From Sipunculus nudus (Eukaryota; Annelida; Sipuncula; Golfingiida; Sipunculidae), in NCBI GenBank assembly GCA_026874595.1, contig CM049314.1, forward strand, positions 77,204,300-77,268,299: a DNA stretch of 64,000 bases, in the 5' to 3' direction. The notes under the pieces were generated by a model that did no database searches, had not been told where the DNA came from, and saw only the letters and a program-made list of their open reading frames with translations. Below are positions 8,193 to 57,350 of the stretch, piece by piece. The position numbers and the translations under genes are program-made. Each line of letters starts with the position of its first letter. Position 1 is the first letter of the stretch.

Positions 8193-8224
<32 letters not shown>

Positions 8225-8236
8225 TATATATATATA
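8193..8236. repeat. (TA)n microsatellite
   Basis: Near-pure TA run at the left edge of the first copy of the 8.2/14.9 kb direct repeat. Confidence 0.95.
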
Positions 8237-8562
8237 CTACCAAATGAGTCTATATAGTTTTAAATGTGCTTGTATTGTTTATATGATTTACAACATTGCC
8301 CTAGAACCATGACCCTTTTGATAATCAGCTTATCAATTGAATATACCATCCTAGTAAAATTTTGGGATATAAATACACGCGGGCACATCACTGACCTAAA
8401 ATTAATTTATAAAACATATATTTAATATTTAATATAGCTTGCCGTATATCGTACAGTAAACATCGAAAAAAAAATTCACCTTAGTACCTAATATTACACA
8501 AGATCAAAGTAATATAGGTGTGATATCGGAAAAAATGTGTGCTTAGTAAAATAGTATAAAAG

Positions 8563-8619
<57 letters not shown>

Positions 8620-10050
8620 TGTTTATTTTTTATGCAACGTGGATTAAATGTTAACCACTGCATAATTATGGAATAATTCCTTGTGTGAAATGATTGTCAG
8701 GACCGTACAGTATGGTCGAAGTGATTGCCTGGTTAGGAACGGCTTTGGAATTAATTTAGTGAAAAGGAAAGTGCATATGTGAATTGTATTTTATAACGGC
8801 CATTACTGCAACGTAGACATTAGAGAAGTTTATAAGAGCTGTTGGTCTGTATATTTCTAATTCAAGGATCATCTCTGTAGAGAAATTTAATTTAACTTAC
8901 ATTTCCAGTTAGTTCTTTAATTCTACAGTATATCATTCATCATGCTTAAATTCCTTTAACAATTGTTAAAGGAAGCTTAAATAAATAACAGTAATATAAA
9001 AACATTTGAAATTTTTATGTACACTCCCATTAATTCTGTATTGGGAGCAGCAGCTTTTATATCACTAAAGTGTTCTTCGCAGAAGGGTGTATCGAGGTTG
9101 GCTTTCCTTTTAAGTATTAATCTTAGGAGATGTTTAGGATTAAGGTTCTATGTGTCCTGAGTATAAACATCACTCAAACCTTTTTTTCACCAAACGTCCT
9201 TTTGAAGTGAAAACATAATATCTTATTTTAAATGAGTCCATCTTTATTCTTAGCGAGTTCGCTCGCAGTAAAATATCTTCATAAATCTCCTTCCACTTGA
9301 AGTGTACCTTGAAAGAATTCTTGAGCGGTCTTTCACTAAGCAGCTTGCAATGTACACTCTCTACAGCGTATACTGGCCTTAGTTATCCTATAATGTTGAG
9401 TGCGTCCTGTTCATAGGCTTTATTGGAAGGCAAATATTTCCTATAAGCAAAACACTGGTTCGATCCACAAAACAGCCTTACCAGTTATTTCGGGTATTAT
9501 GAGAAGGTCGCACGTGATGTTGCCAAAATCATCGGAGCAATTCAAATCCAGCGTTAAAGTAAATATACAAAACGGTCACAATTGTTCACATGCCGTATTA
9601 AAAGGTTTATCGCCTTTATATACTAGCCTTTATTTGACTGGTCAAATTCTCGATGGCGTTCTGGCACCGCCACTGATCAGAACAAACAGGAATCAGTTGA
9701 CTCCCTACAGAAGTCACTTGATGGTAAACTGACTTGGCAATAGTTCATGAAATAGCGTGCATGGCGAGTTGATAGAGGAAGATGTCTCGCTAAGCTTAGC
9801 GCCGAGCCTTGCTTATAAGATTATGGAACGTATGAGCTGCTGAAAGAAAAAACAAAATAAAACACTAAATCAAGCGACCTTGTTTTGGGTTTACATCCTT
9901 AAGTCCCCTGTGTTTACTTTCTTCTGCCAATTTTTCTTTTAAGCTAGATCTCAATATATGTCAATCTTTCAAAAGTAGAAATTTGGGAACAGTTTCAGGC
10001 CATGGTCACAGATTTGTACCTAGAATATATTTCTGATCATACTCCCAAGG
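8204..10050. repeat. Left copy of a large direct repeat flanking the Gmr1-like relic
   Basis: Aligns along its length with 14942-16540 in the same orientation. Shared stretches include ACCAAATGAGT or GCCAAATGAGT after the TA tract, GAAGGGTGTATCGAGGTTGG, CGCTAAGCTTAGCGCCGAGC and ACTCCCAAGG at the right end. This copy carries an extra insertion near 8565-8765 containing a second TA tract. At about 10050 it passes directly into reverse transcriptase sequence. Several small indels indicate that the two copies are old. No protein is recognised in it. Confidence 0.85.
8565..8617. repeat. (TA)n microsatellite
   Basis: Pure TA run inside the part of the left direct repeat that is absent from the right copy. 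Confidence 0.95.
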
Positions 10051-10055
10051 TCGTA

Positions 10056-10850
10056 CATTTCAGCTACAGCAGAAAAAAATGGACAAAACTTCCTGTAGTA
10101 TCCAACAATACCAAGAAAACGCATTATTTGCTTTTTGTTCTCTGGTCTAGGAAACGCAGAAATAGCACTTATTTTAGCATCAATAGGTTTTACTTGACCC
10201 TGCCCTACAATATGACCCAAAAATGTTACTGGAGCATGACAAAACTCAGATTTTACCAAGTTGACGGTCAGACGTGCTTCACTTAGTCTTTCGAAGAGGT
10301 CGCGAAGAATTTGCAGCTGTTACTCCCTAGGTGTCGCTGTACACGATAAGGTCATCAATATATGCGTCGCAGCCCTGAATGTCCTTGACAACCATTTGGA
10401 TGAGGCGCTCTAACGTGGCTGGCCAGTTCTCCATGCCAAACGTCATAACTTTATGCTGGTACAGTCCTTGCGGCGTCACAAATGCGGACACTTCTTTCGC
10501 TCGTTCTGTCAGCGGAATTTGCTAGAATACTTTTAACAAGTCAAACTTGGAGACATATCTGGAGCTACCGACTCTATCAATGCAATCATCGATCCTCGGA
10601 ATCAGGAACGTGTCAGTCTTGGTGACAGAGTTCAGCTTTCGATAATCGGTGCACATACGGTAACTTCCATCAGATTTTGGCACCAGAATACATGGTGAAC
10701 TCCAGTTACTGTTACTAGGTTCAATAAAATCATTGTCCAGCAAATAAATCTCATCCTGTAGACACTTTTTTCTTTTCTGGATTCAGTCTACCAGGATGGT
10801 GCTTGACTGCGCTTGCTCCGCCAATATCGACGTCATGGCACAATATGTTA
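10056..10850 (-). pseudogene. Reverse transcriptase of the Gmr1-like element, broken
   Basis: Ty3/gypsy-type RT that would copy element RNA into DNA in the cytoplasmic particle. Visible parts, in order: the IEPSNSNWSSPCILVPKSDG block and the MCTDYRKLN motif (10522-10743); an F-T-P-type strand with QGLYQHKVMTFGM; the intact catalytic YIDD at 10351-10362; and the FLGHIV and FLGIVGYYRKFCPFFS connection-region motifs (10020-10259). Lesions are a stop where a Trp is expected just after the DLLKVF stretch (near 10522), a frameshift right after YIDDLIVYSDT, another stop near 10325 and a frame change near 10750. The frame ends in unrelated sequence at the junction with the direct repeat. RNase H is absent. 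It cannot be functional. Confidence 0.9.
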
Positions 10851-11119
10851 GTTCGCGCTGGAATGTCACTAAACAAATGTTCATAATTCGCAGCAGGTTC
10901 TTGAGGTCTTGTTGTTGTTGTGCGGTAAGGTGTGACAGTTTGTCATCCAGGTTGTTAAGCACGTCTGACGTCTTTAGTGGTACTGTACCACACTGAATGT
11001 TTACATTACACTTACAATCAGTATTCACTTTAACTGGGTCAGGGTCAGTTTTTACACAATTAACAGCAGTAACATTTTGTACAACATCTGATGTGCTATT
11101 TCTATCACAATATGGTTTC

Positions 11120-12300
11120 AATAGGTTAACGTGGCACAGTTGTTTCTTCCTACGTCTATCTGGTGTCAACAGCATATAATTTAAATCACTGACTTTCTTG
11201 TCAACAATGTAAGGACCAAAATACCTAGCTTGCAGAGGTCTGCCAGGGATGAGAAGTAAGGCAACGACCTTTTCACCAAGCTCAAACGTCCTACTTACAG
11301 TGTGCTTGTCATACTTTGATTTCATTTTACTTTGTGGTGATTCTAGATTTGACTTTGCAATCTTACAAGCATTGTGTAGTTTAGTGCGAATGCCTGAGAC
11401 ATACTGCAGTAAACTAAGAGAAACAGGATTTTCACACAAGAGATTTTCTTTAAGCAGTTTCAATGGTCGCGAACTGAATGTCCAAAAACTAGTTCAAAGT
11501 GACTGAAACCCTAGGACTCTTGAAAGGATTCTCTGACAGCAAACATCAATAGGTGGATTCCTTCATCCCAGGAGTTTTGTGTGTCATACCAATTGGTCAT
11601 AATCATGATTTTTAATGTCTGGTGAAAACGTTCGAGGGCGCCCTGACTTTCAGGATGGTATGGCGAAGAGCTGTACTGTTTTATACCTAGCTCAAGCATA
11701 ACTTGGTGCAATAAGCCAGACATAAAATAAGACCCTTGGTCAGACTGGACGGATTTTGGTAATGCAAAAGTTGTAAAACACTTGATCAGAGCTTTGACAA
11801 CACTTTTGGCATTAAATTTGCGCAATGGTATTGCCTCAGGGAACCTGTTTTGGGCAATGGTCCGACAACAATAATTTAACTAAAAGGATCCTCGAAAGCA
11901 GATGGGGCCTAGGTGGGGCCTAAGGAGGATTCTGATGGGGCTTGCCTACCATCTGGCATGTATGGCATGATTTTCAATATTGTACAACATCTTTCCTGAA
12001 GTTAGGCCAATAGAAGTGATTTCTGATAAGTTGTATATATACCTAAATTGTCAGACAATAGAGCCTCATGTGCCATGCTTAGAATTTCATTGCAAAAGTT
12101 TTTGGGCATTACTATTTGATGTTTGATGGCCCACTCATAAACAGCACATGCATCAGGTGATCGCCATTTACACATAAGCACTCCATTTTTAACATAGAAA
12201 CATACTGGGTACTGTGACAGTAGACTGTTCATCTTTAGAAACTGCCCTGGGAAACAAACGCGAAATATCAGGGTACTTATGCTGTTCCGCAATAAGTTTT
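11120..12300 (-). pseudogene. Integrase of the Gmr1-like element, broken
   Basis: DDE integrase that would insert the cDNA into host DNA. The N-terminal zinc-binding region is at about 12002-12300; its second His position reads Asn (LLSDNLGIY) and its Cys pair is degraded. In the catalytic core the first Asp is lost: the text runs IIVV-GPLPKT, and about 20 residues between that strand and FPEAIPLRK are deleted. The second Asp (SVQSDQGSYF) and the Glu (GALERFHQ) are present in 11511-11825. A C-terminal GPY/F-type module (FGPYIVDKKVSD) followed by HVNLLKPY lies in 10783-11463. That frame continues past the integrase into a linker leading to RT, which shows directly that integrase sits upstream of RT here. 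Confidence 0.9.
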
Positions 12301-13200
12301 GACCTCGAAAATGCTGTATCCCGTACATGCGAGTCATTAGACGAGTCACTAGTGACTCCAAGAGTGTTATTATCTGGACCATTATCCTCATGTATGTTTT
12401 TCTTGGCCATAGATCTAGTTACAGCACATGAAGGATACAAACCAGGAATTTCCTGAATTTCCGGATCAGTGTCCTGATCAAATGTCGGCTTTTCTGTCAC
12501 TATTGGCACAGGCTGTACTTTGTCACCTGCAACATCATTGCCAAGTAGCAACTGAATTCCTTTAAAGGGTAAAGTAGTTCTAATGCCAACAGTAATATTC
12601 CCAGAAATCAAACCTCACTTTAAATGTATACTGTGAAGCGGACCTGAAGTGTACTTGTCTGAAAACATACCATTAACAAGTGCATGTGCCCAGTAAAGAC
12701 CTATTAGAAAATAGCAGTATTTGCTAGCATGAGAGTCTGGCCTGAACCAGTGGCCTTCAAACCCTAATAGGGGTAGAGTCCGAAAAATCACTTGAGAGTG
12801 ATACAAAACCATTATGTATGAATGCCTCAAATAAATCCATTTCAGAGTCAGGAGAAGAACCTACTACCTCAGTTTCGTCAAACAAAGAACTGACATTGAC
12901 AGTGTCAGTCATAAACTCTTTTTCAGAGTCATTAAAGGAATCAACATCCATTTTACAATCAAACTCCTCATGGGAGTCAACAGAGGAATTTTCCTCAGCA
13001 GAAACATACTTCTGTCTGTCATAAGAGGACCTGCCCTCATTTGAAATACTCTCGCAAGAGTCATAAAAGGACTTAGCCTTATTCAAAGAATACTCCCCGC
13101 AGGCGTCTTGAAAGGACCTAGCCTTGTTCAATTCCTCGCAGGAATCAACTGAGGTCCTTACCCCGCAAGCTACGGATTCTTCTTTGAGTTCAGACGGCAC
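12189..13200 (-). pseudogene. Acidic repeat spacer and aspartic protease remnant
   Basis: Residues encoded at 12757-13200 form about seven imperfect ~15-residue repeats built on S-(F/V/Y)-D-S-x-E, rich in Ser, Asp and Glu. This spacer lies between the zinc knuckle and the protease. The protease starts around the PIRV stretch; its active-site triad position reads Ala-Thr-Gly-Ser (12743-12754) instead of Asp-Thr-Gly, and several frame changes follow. The C-terminal LLLGNDVAGDKV motif, seen in pol proteins of this element group, is encoded near 12510-12545. A linker towards integrase follows. The repeat count is by eye. Confidence 0.72.
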
Positions 13201-13301
13201 GTGGGCCTCCGTAGCATTAAACTCTCTATTACAGTCAATAAAGGAGTTATACCCTTTATTTACATGAAAAGAGCCAGGCTCTTGTACTTTGCTAGTTTCC
13301 A

Positions 13302-14530
13302 GCAGTCAAATTTTAGATGACCTTACTTCTTGCAGTAATTACAGATATTTTTCGCAAATGACTGGTCTTTGTTGGACGTGGACCGAGGTGTAGCAATGGA
13401 CCTTGTTGAACTACCAGGACTACTTGTACTGGGTGACTGCGCTTTAAACTTCTTTTGACCATACATTTTACATTCTTGTTCGTGAATGACTGGTTTGATT
13501 TGCTATTAAAGGACATTTTGTGTGGTAATTAATAATCATCAGCTAATTGAGCAGCAATGTCAAGTGTTTCAGGACTTTTCTCATCAAGAAAAGTTTTAAC
13601 ATCTGCGTTAATGCAGCGCTTGAATTCTTCAAGCAAAATCAACCGGGGCAAATTGTCATAATCTTTCATTACATTTTTAGAACTACACCAGCGATCAAAC
13701 AACTGCTCTTTTGTCCTAGCAAATTCCACGTAGGTCTGTTCTTTGCGCTGTTCCCAATTTCTGAATTTCTGGCGGCAAGCCTCCGGAACTAACTCATAAC
13801 CTTTGAGGATTAACTGTTTAACCTGGTGATAGTCAGCAGCGGCTTCTACTAAGAGCTCTGAATAAATTTCTCTGACCTTGCCAGTCAATACACTTTGTAA
13901 CAGCATAGTCCAATTTTCCTTAGGCCAATTTAAATTTTCAGCTACCTTCTCAAAGTGTAAGAAATATTTATCAACCTCTTTTTCTTGAAAAGGTGGGACA
14001 ATTCTAATGTGTTTAGTGACAACAAAACTGTGAGTTGGGACAACACTTAGACTATATAACTTAGACTTTATAACTCAATTTCTTTTTCTGTTTCTAGTAT
14101 TTTTCTTTCTAATTGTTCTTCCCTCTCTTTTAATGCTAGCTCATGTAGCATTTCCAACTTTTTAAATTCTAATTGCATAGCAAGGCTGTCATTTTTTTTT
14201 ATGTTTCCACTTCACTCTTTTCAATTAAACCTTTGCGAAGTAGATCTTGCATGATTTTAGCAATGATATCAGGCTTTCTCAAAGTTTTTTTTCACACTTA
14301 GCCCTAATTGTTGTCTCAAACGCAACAACTGTTCCTTTATCAACTGTTCAGATTGATCAGGGTCGGAATCGTCAACAAATGTCTCAGGTTTGAAAAGTGC
14401 GATGTTGAAATGTAAAAAAAAAAAAAAAAAAGTGAGATAAATCCTGTAAACAATGCATTGTAAACAACATGTAATCTTGTAAAAATTATGATATAACAAT
14501 GTGTCCAGGTCAAGGCCTAACAAATTTTTA
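13302..14530 (-). pseudogene. gag of the Gmr1-like element with SCAN-like capsid and zinc knuckle
   Basis: Structural protein of the retrotransposon particle. From the N-terminal side: an acidic, Gln/Leu-rich helical start (about 14269-14400); a Glu/Lys coiled coil near 14075-14200; the VVTKHIRIVPPFQEKEVDKY stretch near 13960-14020; and a helical capsid domain (13529-13906) with YELVPEACRQKFRNW and EEFKRC. That pattern matches the vertebrate SCAN domain, known to derive from Gmr1-like gag. At 13302-13343 is a CX2CX4HX4C zinc knuckle (CNYCKK, then GHLKFDC) with TAA replacing one residue at 13323-13325. Other stops and frame shifts, including a poly-A tract near 14415-14431, break the N-terminal part. 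Confidence 0.85.

Positions 14531-14906: not shown

Positions 14907-14952
<46 letters not shown>
14907..14952. repeat. (TA)n microsatellite
   Basis: Pure TA run that joins the Gmr1-like LTR to the right copy of the flanking direct repeat. Confidence 0.95.
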
Positions 14953-14953
<1 letters not shown>

Positions 14954-16540
14954 TGCCAAATGAGTAATTAAAGTTTTTATGTTATTGTATTGTTTATATA
15001 ATTTACAAGATTCAGCTATAATCAGCTGATCCATTGAATATATCATCCTAGTAAATTTTTTTTGGATATAAATACATGTGGTCACATCACTGACCTTAAA
15101 TTAATTTATAAAACATATATTTAATATAGCCTGCCGTACATCGTACAGTAAACATCGAACAAAATCCCCTTAATGTACCGTATATAACCCAATACAAGAC
15201 CAAACAAATATAGATGTGATATCGGATACAAAAATTGTATGGTTAGTTAAATAGTAAAAAAGGGTAAATGACATAAGGAAAGGGCACAAGTGAATCTTAT
15301 TTTATTACGGCCATTACTGTCACGTAGACATAAGAGAAGTTTATAAGAACTAATGGCCTGTAAATATTTCTAAATCACGGATTATCTCTGTAGAGAAATT
15401 TAATTTAATTTACATTTCCAGTTTGTTCTTTAATTATACAGTATATCATTCATCATGCTTGTTCAAGGAAGCTTAAATAAATAACAGTAATATAAAACCA
15501 CTTGGAATTTTTATGTACAATCCCATCAATTCTGTATGGGGAACAGCAGCTTTTATAACACAAACGTGTTCCTCGCAGAAGGGTGTATCGAGGTTGGCTT
15601 TCCTTTTAAGTATTAATCGTTGGGGATGTTTAGGCTTAAGGTCCTATGTGTCCTGAGTATATAATCACTCAAACCTTTTTTTTTATTTTACCAAACGTCC
15701 TTTTGAAGTGAAAACCATAATCCCTTATTTTAAATGAGTCCATCTTTATTCTGGGCGAGTTCGCTCGTAGTAAGATATCTCCATAAATCCCTTCCACTTG
15801 AAGTGTAACATGAAAGACTTCTTGAGCAGTCTTTCTCTAAGCAGCCTGCAATGTACACTCTCTGCAAGTTATACTGGCCTTTGTTATCCTATAATATTGG
15901 GTGCATCATATTGATAGGCTTTATTGGAAGGCAAACATTACCTAAAAGCAAAACACTGGCTCTATCCACCAAACAGTCTTACCAGTTATTTCGGTAATTA
16001 TGAATAAGGTCGCACGTGATGTGGCCACAGACATCAGGGCAAATCAGTAAATGTACAAAACGGTCACAAATGTCCACATGCCGTATTTAAAGGTTTATCG
16101 CCTTTATATACTATCCTTTATTTGACTGGTCAAATTCTCAATGGCGTTCTGGCACCCCCACTGATCAGAACATAGTGACACATTGTTTTGCTCAGTGAGG
16201 AGAGGATGCGTTCAGGAGTCACTTGATGGTAAACTGACATTAGTTCATGTAATAGTGATGGCGACCTGATAGAGAAAGATGTCTCGCTAAGCTTAGCGCC
16301 GAGCCTTGCTTATAAGATTATGGAACGTATAAGCTGCTGAAAGAAAAAAAAATTAAAACACTAAATCAAGCGACCTTGTTTAGGGTTTTACATCCTTCAT
16401 TCCCATTGTTTTCCTTCTTCTCCATTTTTCTTTTAAGCTTGATCTCCAATATATGCCAACCTTTCAAAAGCAGAGATTTTGGAACAGTATCAGGCGATGG
16501 TCACAGATATGTACCTCGACCATAATTTTGATAACACTCC
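14942..16540. repeat. Right copy of the large direct repeat
   Basis: Collinear with 8204-10050 and in the same orientation. It lacks the ~190-bp insertion seen in the left copy at 8565-8765 and has other small indels. Beyond 16540 the two copies part: this one continues into ordinary AT-rich DNA and the left one enters RT sequence. CGCTAAGCTTAGC near 16288 also occurs at 9790 and 25842. Confidence 0.85.
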
Positions 16541-17265
16541 CAAGGTTCTACATCTGCGTACTCCTCGGACCGTTCAATTATAACATGCTGAGCTTATGCA
16601 GGTCCATAGACTATGGTGATCCAGTAGGACGCAGAATTTATTTATGTAATTTTTGAGTATATGTTGTTTAAATATGCCTTAAACAGTTGTTTCATTCCAA
16701 AATGATACTAGAATGGCACTCAGTGAAGCGCATAAGTCCGCAAATTTGTCATACCCCGATCTGTACCAAATATAGTGGTGTTCTCCCCGACCCACGAAGT
16801 CATATAGAAATAAATTCAGTATTTTCAGTACGAACTAACATGGTTCCAAGCATAAAAAGTTCACGAACGAACTGCTAAGAATGGATATGTAGAGCAGACT
16901 CATTATAAAACATTATCTGATTTCTATGGTTTATTCAAGTGAAACGCTGTTTATTTTTAGCTCCCTGTTTAAAACAAAGAAGGGTCCGAAGAAGCAGTCT
17001 TCTGCAGAGGTTGAATGTCTTTTTACACAACCAGAGGCCGCTGCAGGCCTTTAAACCCCCATAATCGATATACATTGTCACTTTACCTTTCAACTTATTT
17101 ATGATAATTCTGAAAGATAAAATCTAAAATGAATAAATAGTCCAATTAAATTAAAGGTTCATAGTCCCAGAGAACAAAATTGAAGCGGACAAAAATGTTA
17201 TTTGAAAAGAGTATACCGTAGGTGGAATTCAATAAAGCAAACAAGAAAGAATAATCGCTGTTACG
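16541..17265. other. Non-coding DNA
   Basis: No gene or clear repeat recognised. Short frames at 16453-16878 look like chance. Confidence 0.45.
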
Positions 17266-20648: not shown

Positions 20649-21263
20649 AGTCTAGACGTACCATAGCCGGTGTAGAGACAACAGACCCCATCCTGCTACA
20701 GATCTCCCCCTGTTTTCAATGGCCAAGGTACCATCAACCTATGCAACAGAAATTGAAATGTCCTCCAATTTATTTGATTATAAATACAAAGGAAAGGAAC
20801 GTGTATCAATAAAATTGCGAACACGTTAAATTATGTATTCATTTCATTTAATGAATTTGTGGAAAAGAAACCAAACTATCACGATCCATATTAGGAATAA
20901 TAGGCAACCTGTGATAGGACAGATGGTGACATTTGCTGGATAGATCTTAAGGACACTATATGACAATCGGGAATGGAAACTGATCTTATTTCTGGCATCT
21001 CAGTGTCAAAAGGCGTTAATGGAGACCGGCGTGACAAACTGAGAGGACTATAGGGCACATGGTGAAGTATAGTATTATACCTCAGCATTGATTCCCCTGG
21101 CGATCTGTCTGTCTAAGCCCTTGATCTAACACTCCCTTGTCCTCTCGAATGTATTGATTCCGAGTCAACCCCGAACTACGCAGGGGTACAACCTTACATC
21201 CTCAGCATTTTTTTTTTGTCTATTAACTCTATTAAAAGATGATGAAGCTACTCTGCCACATGA
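20649..21263. other. Non-coding DNA upstream of the Penelope-like element
   Basis: No gene or repeat recognised. The minus-strand frame at 20891-21088 resembles nothing known to me. Confidence 0.45.
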
Positions 21264-21280
21264 GATATATATATATATAT

Positions 21281-22435
21281 ATGTTGTCCGACAGCCCATC
21301 AAAGCCTTTAGCGTATATGCGTTACATTGATGACATATTTATTGTATGGCAACACTGTCCAGAATCTCTAAAACTTTTTTTTGCACAAGCGAATAATGTC
21401 AATCCTCATATCAAATTCACAATCGACTCCTCACCGGCACAAATCCCATTCCTTGATGTGTCAGTTGCCATCACTGAAGGACATTTGACTACCACCATAT
21501 ATCATAAACCAACTGACGGTCACAGCTATCTCCACTACAGTAGCTTCCACCCACAACATCTCAAACGAGGGATCGTATTTGCACAGATGCTGCGCTACAG
21601 ACGCATATGCTCAAATGATTCAGATTGTAAATGCAAAGCACTTGAATTAGCCAAACATTTCCTCATTAAAGGGTACCCTTTCAAGTTAATCCTACAAAAT
21701 TTTGAAAAAAAAGTTTGTTATATTAAACGAAACAGCCTCCTCAGTTACAAAGAAAAAGACATAAATTCACGCATCCCTATGATCCAGGAATTTCACCCGC
21801 CCATCATCTCTATCAACAAAAATATACAAAAATGCTGGAATAACTTTAATTTAAATCCCGCTACAGGTTCTCTTTTCTCCACGCCTCCCGTTGCCACTTA
21901 CAGACAGCCTCCCTACCTCAAACGCATGCTTGTGCACTCGAAACTACACAAACATAACAGCCCGTCAGGGAATGTCAAATGCGGTGACCGCCTCTGTGAG
22001 ATTTGCGATATTTTAAACACCAATTCCACATTTCAGTCCCCAGGATCTAACATAACCCTAAGGCCAGGCCCTTTTTCTTGCAATTCCTCAAATGTCATTT
22101 ACTTTATTACTTGTTAAAAATGCCCGAATGGGGAGGGAAATTTTATAGGAGAAACCGGCACCAAATTCAGGCTCAGAATGAACAACCACAAAAAAACATC
22201 CGCGACAACACTCCCCGATTCCCCGTGGCCGCACATTTCAACAAATCCAACCATTCGCTCAGAGATTTAACATGCATCATCCTTTAAATGCAACTTTCCC
22301 TCCAGCAAAGACAGATTCACATCCGAACAAAAGCACATTGATACACTACGTACGCACATAAAAGGATTAAACAAAGATTTGGCTTTTCTCTGTAAATACC
22401 CGGCACTCATCACATACTTTTCCCCTCGAGACTAA
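21281..22435 (+). pseudogene. Penelope-like RT (C-terminal part) plus GIY-YIG endonuclease, broken
   Basis: RT related to telomerase RT, joined to a GIY-YIG nuclease; the protein makes the nick and primes reverse transcription. The frame starts directly after the TA run with MLSDSPSKPLAYMRYIDDIF; the catalytic YIDD is at 21323-21334, so the finger and early palm regions are missing. PFLDV and YHKPTD follow as in the family. The linker has a CGDRLCEICDI Cys cluster. The nuclease begins NVIYFITC, then an in-frame TAA at 22115-22117, then FIGET (standing for YIG), Arg and His-rich helices. Two frame changes near 22220 and 22283 compensate each other, and the original frame ends at TAA 22433-22435. 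Confidence 0.88.
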
Positions 22436-31010: not shown

Positions 31011-31210
31011 TAAGAATAGAATGGAATTAGTTTATTCAGGAAAAGGCCTCAGGCCCAAAGTTCCAAGAAAAAGAAACATTAACATAGTAATACACTATAA
31101 ATATCAAATTGTCATTTTAACAAAACATGAACAAATAATACAATAAAAATATCCAATTATAAATCAGGCTATCAATCTGCCATCAGTGGTTCAAGTTAAC
31201 ACTTAATACA
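31011..31210 (-). other. 3' UTR of the CR1-like LINE
   Basis: Downstream of the ORF2 TAA (31211-31213). It contains a GGGCCTGAGGCC palindrome-like stretch that could form a small hairpin for RT recognition, then AATAAA and the short CATTCTAT tail. Confidence 0.75.
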
Positions 31211-34200
31211 TTAATTACCCAATGATTGTTCTCTCCTTCTAAATGAATGATATACAAATGCTGCAACACTAGCTATCTCACACGTTTCATTTAAATTAAA
31301 AAGTTTCTTTAAATTGTGTTCATTTAGTTCTATTAAGTCAGCTCTTAAGTACTTAACCCTCAGATCTACATACATAGGACAAGTGCCTGTCTATGATATT
31401 TGTAAGGAACACATGAAATATACTTCTCTACAGTCAGCATTGATTTAAAAGACCCATAGAAATCCAACTTATTACATTAGGTTATATCTTCTTGCCATTC
31501 TTGCATTGCTATATCCTTTAGTCTCTGTTTGAAATTTGTTATTAAAATGTTGCTATTTCCCTCAGACTGTGCTAACCAAACATAACCAAAGCCTGTTTTA
31601 AACAATATTATTCTTATATAAGTTGCCCAAGTTATCTTTCCCTGTTCATCTAACTTTACCATCAAATTATACAGGTGCCTTGGGTATCTTTTGTCTGCCA
31701 TTTGTAATATCTTTAACCAGTAATTTATGCATTTTATTGAATAAGTTACAAATAGAGGATACCGTCCACAGTCTCCTATTGCCGCTGAATTTGCAGTGTT
31801 TATTCCCACATTTAACACATACTTACAAAATTAAATGTGTACTCTTTCAATTGTTTCTATTTTAGTAAACCCCCATAAGTCGCTTACATAAATCAGAATA
31901 GGTACTACCAAGGTATCAAATAGTTAAAACAAGTGATTCATACCTAAATACTTACATTTTGTGTGGAAAATCATTATAACACATACAGCTTTGTTTGCTT
32001 GCATAACCTGTTGTTTCTGTGTTTTAGTCCATGATAACCTGTTAGAAAAAAAACAATACCGAAATATTTGTAATGTGGTACAACATCAAGCTTTTTTCCT
32101 CCGATATACCATCTTTCTACATTTTTCAGTGTACCACCTTTTCTAAAGACCATGATTTTAGATTTATCAAGACTTATCTTTATTCCATATTTATTAGAGA
32201 AATCTTGTAAATGATCAATTTGCTTTCGAAGTCTACCAACTGTATCACTAAAATTTACAAAATCATCTGAAAAAATCAGTGTTATAATATTTGGGAGATG
32301 TTTTCTATATAAATTCCCTTACAATCTGAAGTATGCAAAGTATCAAAATATTCATTTATAAACAGGGAGAATAACAGCGGACTAACCATGCAGCCTTGTC
32401 TTGCTCCCATAGAACAGTTAAAGTATTCAGATAACTCATTTCCTGCTAGCACACATGATTTCATTTTCGAGTACATGGATTTAAAAACTTTAAGCATTTT
32501 ACCATTTATACCAGATTTCATAAGTACATACCATAAAAAGTTGTGTTGTACACTGTCAAAAGCTGTTGAGAAGTCAATATATATGCAGTAAAACCTGCCT
32601 CCCCTTTTTGATATTTTTTGTACTAAAGCTCGCAATACAAAGGCATTATCTATGGTACTATATCCCTTCCTGTAGCCTGCTTGAGATTCACTTATTATAT
32701 TTAAATCTTCTTCATAAGTAACTAGCCTGTTGTACAATATTTTCATGAATATTTTTCAAGAACATCCAATAATGAAATACCCCTATATTTTTTGGGGTCT
32801 GTCACTACCCCTTTCTTATGCAATGGATATATAACAGCTTTGCTCCAAGCTTCTGGAAATATACCTGTTTGTAATAACTTATTATATAGAGTTTCAAGTG
32901 GAAGAAGGAAAAAATCTAAGATACATGTAATAAAATCAACTGTTACACCATCAGGATCTGGTGATTTCCCATTTTTCATCTGGTTTACTGCTTGTCTTAT
33001 TTCATTCTGATCTGTATAAGTACCAAGTTCCCCGCAATCAAGGTTCTCATCAAAATGACTTGAACTGAAATCTTGAATTAGTAATCTGAAATCTTCTTGT
33101 ATGTTATTATCATCTTTGTTAAACAGTTCCTGAAAATAATCATACCACCTAGAAGCTTCTATCTGATTTGGTTTTCTGGATGTCTTAAAGTAACGCACAT
33201 ATTTCCACATTTCTTTAATGTTCTTACCATTAAATATACAATTTATCTCAATATCTTGACATTTTTTCTTATTACCATCACATTCATTCTTAAAAGATTG
33301 TCTTTCTCTCCTGTATGCATTTAAATCATGTAACAATCCTGAACGTCTGTATTTATTGAGTGCTATGTCTTTGGATTTTTTTAGCTGTGTGACACTCTTT
33401 ATCCCACCATTTAGGTTGTGTTTTGATATTTTGCTCATGCTTATGTTTTTTTCTTTACTTTTTCAGCTGCAGTCAATATATAATTGATCAGAAAATTCAA
33501 GGCTTCTTCAACATTATAATTAATACACTGAAAAAAGTATCTAAATGTCTTACTGATATTTCTTGGTTCAAGAGAGTTGTAATTGCATTATAATCATTTG
33601 ACTTCAGTTTATACTTTATCCTTGGTTCTGTCTTAATTATATTTGTTCTAATTTTAACCTCCCTATTTAACTCTAAGGTACATTTAATTGGAAAATGATC
33701 AGAGGCATCAAAATTCAATACAGAGAATGTTTTGATGACATTAAAAAGTTCACTGCTGATAATGATATAGTCAACCACACTTTGTCCTGTACTTGTTACA
33801 CAAGTGTATTCTCCTGATAAATCAGGAGCAGTTCTGCCATTCAAAACATGTATATTAAAACTACAGCACAGATGCTGTAGTGAATAACCAAATTTGTTAA
33901 TTTTGCAATCTTTGGATTCTCTAGAAACATTAAATGTATCATTTGGATAAGCATCCTGTATTCCAACATAATCTAGCTCATCACATTCAATAAAATCATT
34001 CAAGTTTCCAATCCTTGCATTGAAGTCACCCAACAATATGAAACATAACTCATCATAGTGAGATGCAATATCCATCAAAATATTCTCGAGCTTTAATATA
34101 CCATCAGAATCACCAATATCATTGTATAAAGGTGAACTTTCTGGAACCACATAGGTACATAACAATAAAATATCCTTGTGAGAGTTGAAGGGCATCCCAT

Positions 34201-34732
34201 CAACAATGAGTGCAATTATATCAGTGTACTTGTGTATATTTTTAATTCTTATATTACAATCTTTTCTTATACAAACCAGGACTCCCCCTCTAGACATATT
34301 ACCTCTTGAAATCCCATAACAGTTAAAGTCTTGAAAATAATCACAGAACTCAGAAGGATATTTTGCCCAGGTTTCTAATATACAAAGTATATCACACTCT
34401 TCCATTAGCTGTATGAATCCAGGTACATGCAATTTAGATTTTAATCCCCTTGCATTCCAAAAAATAATATGAAAATTATTGTTAGTATTTTCAAAAGTGC
34501 TGTTATTGTTAACTGAAGAAAGAGAATTTGGTGTTAGTGGTGAACTAACCTGTTCCTGTGGTGCAAGTGCAGTTTGAATGTTACTAATCAAAACACATGG
34601 TGCTGTTAGTTGACCATCATCAATATGTTGGATGCAAGTACAATCATCTTCTGCAACAGAACAAAATACATGATTAACAAGACTGTTTTCATATTTTTCT
34701 GAGATTAAAGAAAATTGACCCTGGCCACACCC
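31211..34732 (-). pseudogene. ORF2 of the CR1-like LINE: endonuclease and reverse transcriptase, frameshifted
   Basis: Endonuclease (33497-34480) with WNARG, the catalytic Glu in ETWAKYP, LLGDFNARIG, DYIIISSEL and the final SDH all present. RT follows in 33438-32743 (KNGKSPDPDG, KKYRGISLL) and 32746-32282 (AGYRKGYST, YIDFSTAFD, GARQGCMVSPLLFS). The catalytic box reads FSDD at 32262-32273, both Asp retained. A C-terminal domain (31477-31818) has INYWLKIL and a final block ending EQSLGN at the stop. At least three frame changes lie near 33450, 32745 and 32283, and another near 31385. The frame is open from the ORF1 UAG onward, with no AUG until 34403-34405, inside the endonuclease. Confidence 0.92.
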
Positions 34733-35782
34733 CTATTCACGAGATGCTGAATGTGTAATCATAACCTTCGAGTTAGTTTTTGCATCCCACTTAAACATCT
34801 GCCCTTCAATGTTCAGTTTGTCAAAAGTCGGGTATGCTTCCTTGTTTGCTTCTCTAGCCTGCAGCATAAAAGGAATCAGATTCCTTCTAGCCTCTCTAAC
34901 CAAATCACTATAATCATGGGGGATCTTGATATCACTTTCCTTTAATGACTGCCTAGCCTGTAACATCACTTTTTCTTTGTCTTTAAACTTTGTAAATTTA
35001 ACAATAATAGGCCTAGGTTTACCATTCCTATTTCTAACTGGAAGTCTATGTGCTCTGTCTATACCTAACTCTGCATCTGTATCACAGACAATACCCATTT
35101 TCTCTTTCATTACAGATCTAATTTTCTGTTCACATTCATCCCATGATTCTTTTACCTTACTTTCTGGTACACCATGAAATATTAAATTGTGCCTTCTTGA
35201 TTGGTTTTCTAGTTTTTCACATTTGGTTTTTAGTGCCTCATTTTTAGCTTCAACCGATGTCACTCTCTTTTTCATATCCATTAGTTCCCTTTGCACCGTG
35301 TCCAGTCGCTCTGTCAGTGAAAGTACGTGCTCCCTCAGGTTACCTATGTCGTCACCATCTCCTTGTCTTGCCCCAGCAGTCAAGGGATTGGGTGCACACT
35401 GTTGAGTTTTAGCGATAGGCTGACTATGGTTAAACTCTGTGCCTGATTCGCCCGCTTGGCTCTCATCTCGAATGGTACACATGCTTAGTTTGCCGCTTTC
35501 AGATCTATTTAGTCTAGCTTGAGTTTGCCTGAGTGTTCTATGTTGGTTTTGTGTACCTGTATTACCTTGGTTTGATTTTGGTGCCACTGGTGGGGGTCCG
35601 GGATTCATCTCTACATCACCACTACACAGTAGGAAGAAGGCGATAACTAGGGAAATCACCATGTAAACACGTACCGGTGAGCCGTGGACTGTCAACGTTG
35701 GTACCTTCCACCTTGGTTCCTTCCGTGGACCTGGTCCGTACAGCCCTATACGTGCTCTGTAGGTTTCCAGGCTGACCCCCAT
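34733..35782 (-). CDS. ORF1 protein of the CR1-like LINE with a 2A-like motif
   Basis: An intact 349-residue frame starting at an ATG in strong context (ACAATGG). ORF1 proteins of such LINEs bind element RNA and act as chaperones in the RNP. Residues 41-53 are strongly hydrophobic (MVISLVIAFFLLC) and run straight into GDVEMNPGP, a canonical 2A motif (D56 to P63), where ribosomes are known to skip the Gly-Pro bond. A Gln/Ser-rich linker follows, then a coiled coil (about 144-194), an RRM-like region (HNLIFHGVPE to about 268; RPIIVKFTKFKDK) and a C-terminal domain (to about 335), the layout of L1-type ORF1p. The frame ends at UAG 34733-34735, with ORF2 in the same frame. Confidence 0.9.
   Translation of the reverse strand: MGVSLETYRARIGLYGPGPRKEPRWKVPTLTVHGSPVRVYMVISLVIAFFLLCSGDVEMNPGPPPVAPKSNQGNTGTQNQHRTLRQTQARLNRSESGKLSMCTIRDESQAGESGTEFNHSQPIAKTQQCAPNPLTAGARQGDGDDIGNLREHVLSLTERLDTVQRELMDMKKRVTSVEAKNEALKTKCEKLENQSRRHNLIFHGVPESKVKESWDECEQKIRSVMKEKMGIVCDTDAELGIDRAHRLPVRNRNGKPRPIIVKFTKFKDKEKVMLQARQSLKESDIKIPHDYSDLVREARRNLIPFMLQAREANKEAYPTFDKLNIEGQMFKWDAKTNSKVMITHSASRE
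35594..35617 (-). other. 2A-like motif (DVEMNPGP) in ORF1
   Basis: Eight codons encode D-V-E-M-N-P-G-P, matching the D-(V/I)-E-x-N-P-G-P consensus completely. It lies 15 residues after an internal Met and directly after a hydrophobic stretch, the signal-peptide-like setting known for some 2A sequences of non-LTR elements. Confidence 0.9.
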
Positions 35783-35840
35783 TGTTCACAGTTTCGTTTC
35801 TGACCCAGCAATTCAAAATATTTGGCAACCAAACTAAATT

Positions 35841-36861
35841 TTTTAAACAAACTTTGCCAACTTATTCAGAGCTCAAAAATCACCGTCAAACACCTGTACC
35901 ACCAGATGGTGCTCACAATGTAGCACATTATGCTTAATGCCCCGCAATAGAAATATGTTATAAATCACAAAAATTGACATTTAAACGAACTTCTTCGGAG
36001 AGCAAATACCGTTTCCGGTAACCGTGTACCATTTTGATTAAGTGATTCTGAATGTCACGTTTACTGAGCAAAAAGAAGGTCTGTGACTTGGTGACTTATG
36101 TTACTCTACTGTAGAGTAAGCTTTTATTTTCCACCATCTGATTACTTCAAGCACCCCAAATTTTAAGTTAATCGTCTAATCTGAAAATGATTTTATATTT
36201 ATCTATTGGTTGGTTTGGACTTGTCGTTATATATTATTATATATATATATATTCCATCCTTGCTAATTCAGTTCACTAATTAATGATCATATTACAAATA
36301 TTATGACACTGTATGAAACACATGAAAAATACAAAAAAAAGAATCAATTTACTTGTATAAACAAAAATCGCAAAATTTTAATTATATATACAATGACTCG
36401 TAGACTGTAAAAAGGCTTTGATTCACATGTACAAACTAGTTTCACTTAATACAATTCCGTTTGAATGATATGGGAACAAACCTTAGCGACGTAAGGAAAA
36501 TATGTAAATTAATCGAAATTCTTTGTGTCATGAGCAGTGTAAGTGCCTTTTTACTTCCACTATTTTAAAATAACAGCTAAAAACAACAGGTTTATTAACA
36601 GTTGGATATGGCCTTTTCGCTAAACGAATACGAATGTAGCAAGCTATTCCATGCAATTAAACTCTGTCCAACAAAACGTTTGATTAAAAACACATGAATA
36701 TTATATTGATATCCCAGGTTTAATTTCTTTAATAAGTTAGGTGTGTATGTACTTCCTGCATGGTTCATTACTGAATATCGTGGTCCTTAAATCGTTATTA
36801 AGATATTATTGTTTTAAAAAAAAGTACTATAACTCTTCTGCAATATGATCTGAAATGCTAC
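35841..36861. other. AT-rich non-coding DNA
   Basis: No gene recognised. The left part may hold 5' UTR of the LINE. A short TA tract lies at 36228-36251. Confidence 0.45.
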
Positions 36862-56195: not shown

Positions 56196-57350
56196 AATAT
56201 TATTGTCCCCCAGTCCGCGAATGCAGGGGACATTATTTTGGGTTTGTCTGTCTGTCTTTCCGTCTGTCAGTCCGTCAGGTTTCGTTTCCGTGCGATAACT
56301 TTCCTAAATATTATCCGATTTCATCAAAATATGGGTCAGTGATTGCTCTCATGCATACATTGGTAGGGATTTGTTTTGGAGTGTCTGGCTTCTGTCTGTC
56401 TGTCACTTTGTCTGTCCGTCTGTCTGGTTTTCATTTCCATGCGATAACTTGCCTAAATATTAATCGATTTCATTCCGATTTTGGTCAGTGATTGCTCTCA
56501 TGCATACCTTGGTTGGGATAAGTTTTGGATTGTCTGGCTTTTCTCTGTCTGTCTGTCACTTTGTCTGTCCGCTTGTCTGGTTTTCATTTCCCTGCTATAA
56601 TTTTCCTAAATATTATCCGATGTCATTCAAATTTTGGTCAGTGATTGCTCTCATGCATACCCTGGTTGGGATTTGTTTTGGAGTGTCCGGCTTCTGTTTG
56701 TCTGTCTGTCTGTCACTCTGTCTGTCCGTCCTTTATCAAGCATGAAAAACAACAAGATCCCAAAGCGGGGGACATTATTTCCACGAATTTGCTTGTTTTA
56801 GTTATAGCCCTGGATATATATACATGTCTGCTGTTGAAATATATCTAATCAGATTTTGACAATTTTTCTAACGTATTAACCCTGAATTGTATTAATAATC
56901 AAATTCCATAAATTAAGAAAATATCAGGAAAACTTATTCTCTGTTCAATGACTAATCAAGCAACATCCTATAATCAATTCTGGTTCAAGTATGCATTGAA
57001 ACAGTGAGCTGCTCTGGTGCCTATGTCATGAATTGTGAACAAAGAAGTAAGAATTTGGGCAGGGGGGCACAAATGTCAATGATGCCAAAATAATTAAAAT
57101 AAAAAAAAATACCTTGGTTGGGATTAGTTTTGGAGTGTCTGGCTTCTGTATGTCTGTCTATCACTTTGTCTGTCCATCCGTCAAGTTTTCATTTCCGTGC
57201 CATTACTTTCCTAAATATTATCTGATTTCATTCAAATTTTGGTCAGTGATTGCTCTCATGCATAGCTCGGTTGGGATTGGTTTGGAATGTATTGCTTTTC
57301 TCTGTCTGTCTGTCACTTTGTCTGTCCGTCTGTCTGGTTTTCATTTCCCA
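56196..57350. repeat. CTGT-rich tandem repeat, ~150-bp period, interrupted
   Basis: Units contain CAGTGATTGCTCTCATGCAT, TTGGTTGGGATTTGTTTTGG, a (CTGT)-rich run, then TTTCATTTCC..GATAACTTTCC and AAATATTATCCGATTTCATTC. Unit starts (CAGTGATTGC) are at 56337, 56486, 56639 and 57244. The first block starts near GGGGACATTATTTTGGG and ends near GGGGGACATTATTTCCACG; about 350 bp of other DNA (56760-57110) then separates it from the last unit. All frames inside it are by-products of the repeat. Confidence 0.88.

Follow-up and report, generated by a model that had tools for sequence, protein, structure and literature searches.

How ORF2 is translated from the bicistronic RNA of a LINE is a long-standing puzzle, and unusual ORF1-ORF2 junctions have been a topic of discussion for turtle CR1 and other LINEs. 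The question arises again from a LINE copy in the 64,000-nucleotide stretch of Sipunculus nudus DNA analysed here (the window). In this copy ORF1 and the endonuclease share one reading frame, split by a single UAG, and no AUG lies between that stop and the first endonuclease motif.

The window element is an APE-type LINE (non-LTR retrotransposon). It encodes an APE endonuclease and a LINE reverse transcriptase and occurs as dispersed copies with a common 5' end (Table 1). Among PDB structures, the reverse transcriptase piece is matched best by LINE-1 ORF2p, and also by R2. The 5' base (35913/35914) is common to copies L037, L038, L046, and L047, and several copies have their 3' end at or near 31013. 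About 140 bp at 31380/31381 are missing from the window copy and present in at least 9 of the 15 fetched family copies. A search for further copies of the element inside the window gave nothing. From its N terminus, ORF1 carries the hydrophobic segment with the 2A motif, a coiled-coil-like stretch (a label that we assume from L1-type ORF1), and the L1-type RNA-binding domain, and then ends at the UAG. Elsewhere in the window there are remains of a Gypsy-like element on the minus strand (10783-14074, with a SCAN domain at 13529-14074 and integrase pieces at 10783-11879), a dispersed repeat pair with 80-85% identity (8194-10058 and 14910-16553), and tandem minisatellite-like copies with ~83-88% identity (56239-57349). 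An open frame of 293 aa on the plus strand (21236-22117) has no Pfam match; we presume that it resembles a Penelope-like element.

Table 1. Features of the LINE copy in the window
Feature	Coordinates	Strand	Remarks
LINE copy	31013..35913	-	full length at both ends, judged against other copies
ORF1	34733..35782	-	349 codons; AUG at 35782, UAG at 34735-34733
Hydrophobic segment and 2A/StopGo motif GDVEMNPGP	35594..35671	-	N terminus of ORF1
L1-type RBD-like domain (Transposase_22)	34949..35194	-	Pfam match, E 5e-7
UAG between ORF1 and ORF2	34733..34735	-	GAA before, GGG after; kept in 17/17 readable family sequences
Conserved RNA motif GGCCAGGGTC	34717..34726	-	begins six bases past the stop
N-terminal linker of ORF2	34460..34732	-	91 codons without AUG; contains the LTAP...QVS block
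APE-type endonuclease domain	33695..34459	-	Exo_endo_phos, Pfam E 7e-9; in the post-UAG frame
First in-frame AUG past the UAG	34403..34405	-	codon 110; 18 codons beyond the W of WNARG
Reverse transcriptase fragment	32282..32755	-	RVT_1, E 2e-19; frame-shifted in the window copy

An earlier note on this DNA had described ORF1 as ending at the UAG with the same frame open into the endonuclease, and had placed the first in-frame AUG beyond WNARG. Both descriptions hold on the minus strand. The frame past the UAG is open from 34732 to 33497 (411 codons), and the endonuclease W of WNARG is codon 92 (34459-34457). The note's figure of 47 open codons, to 34592, was right about openness and understated the length, since the frame runs unbroken into the endonuclease. 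Decay of the copy shows in ORF2, which is broken at 33497 and again downstream. The 276 nt past the UAG are open in only 0.64% of 5000 dinucleotide shuffles, and both open and AUG-free in 0.08%. The in-frame codon score of the post-UAG stretch, for which other parts of this ORF2 served as training data, was matched by 0.5% of 3000 control segments, and the other two frames scored about zero.

We then identified family copies in the window's own genome (1.43 Gb, 153 contigs), using the junction at window positions 34300-34900 as the query. There were 32 matches, of which 16 (the window included) span at least 437 of the 601 bases. Twenty loci were fetched; four of these (L032-L035) do not reach the stop, and the other 16 together with the window give 17 readable sequences. 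All 17 have TAG at the stop position and lack an in-register ATG from there to the endonuclease W; 11 of the 17 have no indel across this interval. The triplet past the stop is GGG in 15/17, with AGG and GTG in the rest. In one copy (L036), ORF1 is intact and, past the UAG, another 550 codons are open. The longest open ORF2 is that of L037, within an open frame of 1229 codons in which Met first appears at codon 118, beyond WNARG; this copy has a private one-base insertion just past the UAG. Because the family copies show this arrangement, L036 and L037 included, the elements that spread most likely already carried the UAG and lacked an ORF2 AUG. The collection of family copies proposed in the earlier note thus found UAG and the absence of an ORF2 AUG to be conserved, and revealed neither a family sense codon at the stop position nor a conserved AUG ahead of the endonuclease. 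On contig C8 (1577544-1590530; L032 and L051), a tandem array repeats a fragment of the family LINE every ~6.0 kb, at least three times; L051 lacks ~225 bp surrounding the stop region.

Relatives of the element extend beyond the family. A protein search returned 102 matches, including many relatives that are ~40-60% identical and several with open frames of 1208-1286 codons. We read 44 sister stretches (4 of 6 from one set and 20 + 20 from two others); L056 and L057 were omitted as they overlap loci already fetched (L031 and L033). Reading frame was scored over 45 loci, the window plus the 44 stretches, of which 32 were scorable, meaning that 20 or more open codons precede a stop-plus-motif and that an endonuclease can be recognised. 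In 26 of the 32, the ORF1 stop and ORF2 share a frame. The six off-frame copies are L071 and L086 (L062 lineage), L079 and L080 (L066/L084 lineage), L085, and L088. Other copies of the L062 and L066/L084 lineages are in frame; L085 and L088 are single copies with an indel, and in these two lineages the shared frame was not seen. At the level of lineages, ORF1 and ORF2 lie in one frame split by one stop in 13/15 (the window's included), counts that are not independent trials given that lineages and copies share ancestry. Thirteen loci were left unscored. Among them, L065, L077, L083, and L094 failed the filter though a stop-motif is visible in the endonuclease frame, and L052 and L055 belong to the L053 lineage as additional copies. 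The stop-motif junction was not found in sister stretches L075, L078, L087, L089, L092, L096, and L097.

No start codon is conserved in place of the missing AUG. Met is absent between the stop and the endonuclease in 13 of the 26 in-frame loci, and elsewhere its position differs between lineages; AUGs occur inside the linker in some (L058, L074, L083, L084, and L094). The linker itself varies from 84 to 222 codons across lineages. A variant form of an LT(S/T/A)P...QVS-like block recurs ahead of the endonuclease, in several lineages before any AUG. Five of the 66 pairs compared share 38% or more of their amino acids (one pair involves the frame-broken L088), and in these the linker dN/dS is ~0.34 to 0.82. 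These values suggest weak to moderate purifying selection on the linker.

The junction also carries a nucleotide signal that was not part of the earlier note. With 15 lineage representatives aligned at the stop, the stop is TAG in 8, TAA in 5, and TGA in 2. A occupies -1 in 12/15 and -2 in 12/15, T occupies +7 in 14/15, and A occupies +9 in 12/15. GGC follows at +10 to +12, six bases past the stop, in all 15, then CAG in 12/15 and GGT or GGC in 15/15. The GGC thus belongs to a near-invariant GGCCAGGGYC (GGCCAGGG), often preceded by UYA, and AA often stands before the stop. The motif, ~19 nt, is found with every stop codon. It is conserved at the base level, because third positions are fixed against a background of low GGC use in the flanking ORF stretches. 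Specifically, the Gly codon at the motif is GGC in 13/13 in-frame lineages, versus 2/64 Gly codons in the downstream ORF2 stretches and 10/58 in the upstream ORF1 stretches; GC3 of the downstream ORF2 stretches is 432/1961 (0.22).

The pattern TRRNRGTYAGGCCAGGGTC has 52 matches in the whole genome and none when reversed as a control. These matches include related copies, so that they are not independent of one another, and do not include the window family (UGU at +7); those that overlap fetched loci were read as LINE junctions. By stop they divide into TAA 26, TAG 20, and TGA 6, with no TGG though TGG was permitted, and when one mismatch to the TGG form was allowed, 29 matches came up, none of them an exact TGG form. 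The statement that only stops occupy this position is based on TGG (0/52, and 0 exact among the 29) and on the loci read. All four bases occur at +4 among the 52 matches, and the type I context UAG_CAR_YYA fits nine of them; the UAG-GGG-UGU of the window does not fit. A looser pattern gave 61 matches against 4 in the control, some of which (e.g., TAGGGGTGGGGCCAGGGTC) may be unrelated repeats, and with a broad pattern, matches to an unrelated TGGGCAAAAGGCCAAGGTC repeat drowned out the rest.

The earlier note had proposed folding the region past the UAG, and no conserved RNA structure was found there: z-scores ranged from about -1.5 to +1.7, with one exception of -2.4 (window, 100 nt, 60 shuffles) among 45 tests. 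No downstream pairing partner for GGCCAGGG consistently beat shuffled controls, and the best partner often lay on the conserved ETW codons of the endonuclease. A local hairpin or simple pseudoknot past the stop was rejected, since nothing consistent beyond shuffles emerged from the folding tests and from the simple scan that was used to list stems.

The second feature beyond the earlier note lies at the other end of ORF1. In the window GDVEMNPGP stands behind a hydrophobic run at the ORF1 N terminus, and the 2A is also present in family copies. Related motifs occur in four of five sister stretches fetched for the 2A (L098, GDVEVNPGP; L099 and L101, GGVELNPGP; L102, GDVELNPGP); in the fifth, L100, no ORF1 N terminus was seen. 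The D(V/I)ExNPGP at the ORF N terminus marks the window element as a 2A-bearing LINE, with a putative recoding role for the motif. Similar sequences in sea urchin LINEs are described, in the available text, as acting as both signal sequence and recoding site (PMC4981915).

A scan of genome contigs for the 2A pattern identified six loci (L001-L006). Three of these (L001, L003, and L004) look like chance matches in bacteria. The others encode LINE proteins in records assigned to a Bathymodiolus symbiont (L002), an archaeon MAG (L005), and a Poribacteria MAG (L006, JAAXHI010000280.1); animal-type 2A LINEs in such prokaryote records presumably reflect host contamination. L002 and L005 each have a single ORF in which the 2A immediately precedes the endonuclease. 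In L006, an ORF1 with 2A and an ORF2 form one frame of 1455 codons, interrupted by one stop, UGA-CUA, immediately ahead of the endonuclease; AUG is absent between codons 208 and 765. UGA CUA is given as the human high-readthrough consensus in the accessible part of PMC4359377. Since the reverse transcriptases of L006 and the window are 31% identical, the layout of this single sequence looks either independently derived or very ancient. Scans of viral contigs for relatives or motifs gave none, save one distant reverse transcriptase (L007), and a search of phages for relatives found nothing.

Taken together, the lineages examined combine a single frame with a stop whose position is constant, a constant nucleotide motif, and the lack of a conserved AUG for ORF2. 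We infer from this that the UAG is probably a programmed readthrough stop, yielding an ORF1-ORF2 fusion in a clade of 2A-bearing LINEs. Most ribosomes would terminate ORF1 at the UAG, and a minority would insert an amino acid and carry on in the same frame, producing a fusion with RNA-binding, endonuclease, and reverse transcriptase activities. The low dose of ORF2 could then be set by a predicted low rate of readthrough, which the motif would promote. The signal would consist of any of the three stops, often with AA just before, and NRR-UYA-GGCCAGGGYC just after. Two recoding events on one mRNA appear probable for the clade, because ORF1 opens with a 2A motif. The junction resembles those of programmed readthrough in having a downstream ORF in frame without a conserved start and a conserved stop with a flanking signal. 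Readthrough, which the earlier note had listed as a candidate mechanism, is now the best reading and the simplest account, and it alone demands one frame. It is favoured because the stop lies exactly six bases before GGC in 15/15 lineages despite linkers of 84 to 222 codons. The aids to readthrough named in the portion of PMC3542737 available include adenosines that precede the stop (in yeast) and CARYYA-like bases that follow it. Counting against readthrough are the lack of conserved structure, the weak to moderate linker selection, and the UAG-GGG of the window, which is a type III kind of context; such contexts generally involve 3' structure, according to the same partial source (PMC3542737). 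The AUGs inside the linker of some lineages, the one-base insertion of L037, and the negative reporter test of the similarly arranged LTR element Tca2 (PMC7175516) count on that side too.

Several other explanations were weighed. In termination-reinitiation, ribosomes would stop at the end of ORF1 and restart nearby at a non-AUG codon, with GGCCAGGGYC as a tether (e.g., by rRNA pairing). Such coupling is also compatible with a fixed stop beside a fixed RNA motif. The text available describes termination-reinitiation for SART1 and L1 (PMC5972666), and L1 ORF2 initiation as independent of any AUG present (PMC5009743, likewise in part). Reinitiation needs no common frame, yet ORF2 is in frame in 13/15 lineages, the remaining two being indel-bearing single copies; this argument is weakened by the fact that a shared frame could be inherited. 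A conserved near-cognate codon near the stop is absent, the codons past it being NRR-UYA-GGC-CAG-GGY, and the motif sits past the stop and not ahead of it. We regard non-AUG reinitiation as possible and rather unlikely. Internal ribosome entry or a non-AUG start of ORF2 at the motif, independent of ORF1 translation, would make the shared frame a functionless relic of common descent and would agree with the lack of a conserved ORF2 AUG. We consider it improbable, as it leaves unexplained a stop kept exactly six bases before the motif, in three identities and with TGG in 0 of 52.

Changes to the RNA could also join the two ORFs, either by removal of an intron or by A-to-I change of the stop, and a splice-acceptor-like tgttctgttgcag string does lie near 34652. 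Against this, the 16 retrocopies readable at the stop retain the region, private indels aside, although unspliced RNA could still have been the template; splicing was rejected as the main route on these grounds. UAA lineages would require two A-to-I edits, and overall a spliced or edited source for ORF2 seems very improbable. A one-off nonsense mutation, or decay and fusion artefact, had been the main alternative in the earlier note, and the window copy is indeed decayed elsewhere. It is refuted by the sister lineages and by the UAG and missing AUG of 17/17 family sequences, and its probability is negligible. An ancestral fusion with a new stop, also raised previously, is unlikely given that the stop and the fixed downstream RNA motif are common to the lineages examined, with all three stop codons represented.

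Returning to readthrough, we lean toward a broader proposal: an animal LINE clade would make its reverse transcriptase as a Gag-Pol-like fusion by readthrough, using a new, largely unstructured signal that is independent of stop identity (stop-NRR-UYA-GGCCAGGGYC), plus an N-terminal 2A, and distant 2A-LINEs (L006) may have reached the same layout with a different signal. If true, LINEs use the retroviral dosage trick, and the motif could be a new portable readthrough element. A clade with a conserved stop and RNA motif in place of a start codon offers a short, direct, and testable signal. Annotation that seeks an AUG will truncate such ORF2 proteins. No description of same-frame readthrough in a LINE was found in the literature, a statement that applies to the partial coverage available and not to priority.

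Among known systems, the sea urchin SpNLR2A and other 2A-bearing APE-type LINEs share the 2A, a signal-like hydrophobic N terminus, an APE endonuclease, and a reverse transcriptase; unlike the clade described here, they are not mentioned in the available text as having an in-frame recoding stop between ORF1 and ORF2 (PMC4981915). SART1 and mammalian L1 are alike in translating ORF2 by unconventional means from the bicistronic RNA of a LINE (PMC5972666). SART1, however, uses an overlapping stop-restart and L1 has a 63-nt spacer, and neither is described as same-frame readthrough in the accessible portion of that paper (PMC5972666); the stop-AUG overlap of the SART1 type is absent from the junction sequences. 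The Candida element Tca2 has gag and pol split by a UGA stop, as described in part in PMC2194720, but it is an LTR element, and its predicted readthrough signal was negative in a reporter test according to the available text of PMC7175516.

Classified readthrough contexts offer sequence parallels, as given in the text available for PMC3542737. Some lineages match type I UAG_CAR_YYA (tobamoviruses) exactly (TAG-CAG-TCA/TTA), most have YYA at +7 to +9, and L006 has the UGA-CUA of type II (UGA-CUA/CGG). The clade differs from both types in that the GGCCAGGGYC that comes next is better conserved than the hexanucleotide, and in that +4 may be any base. The gammaretroviral gag-pol of murine leukaemia virus is read through at 5-10%, and an 8-nt spacer separates its UAG from a compact pseudoknot, according to the accessible part of PMC4178896. 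The LINE clade, which is neither an LTR element nor a virus and in which no pseudoknot was found, has instead three stops, a six-base spacer, and a conserved primary-sequence motif. Its layout is nonetheless that of the virus: two ORFs in one frame with a stop between them, the downstream one carrying the reverse transcriptase.
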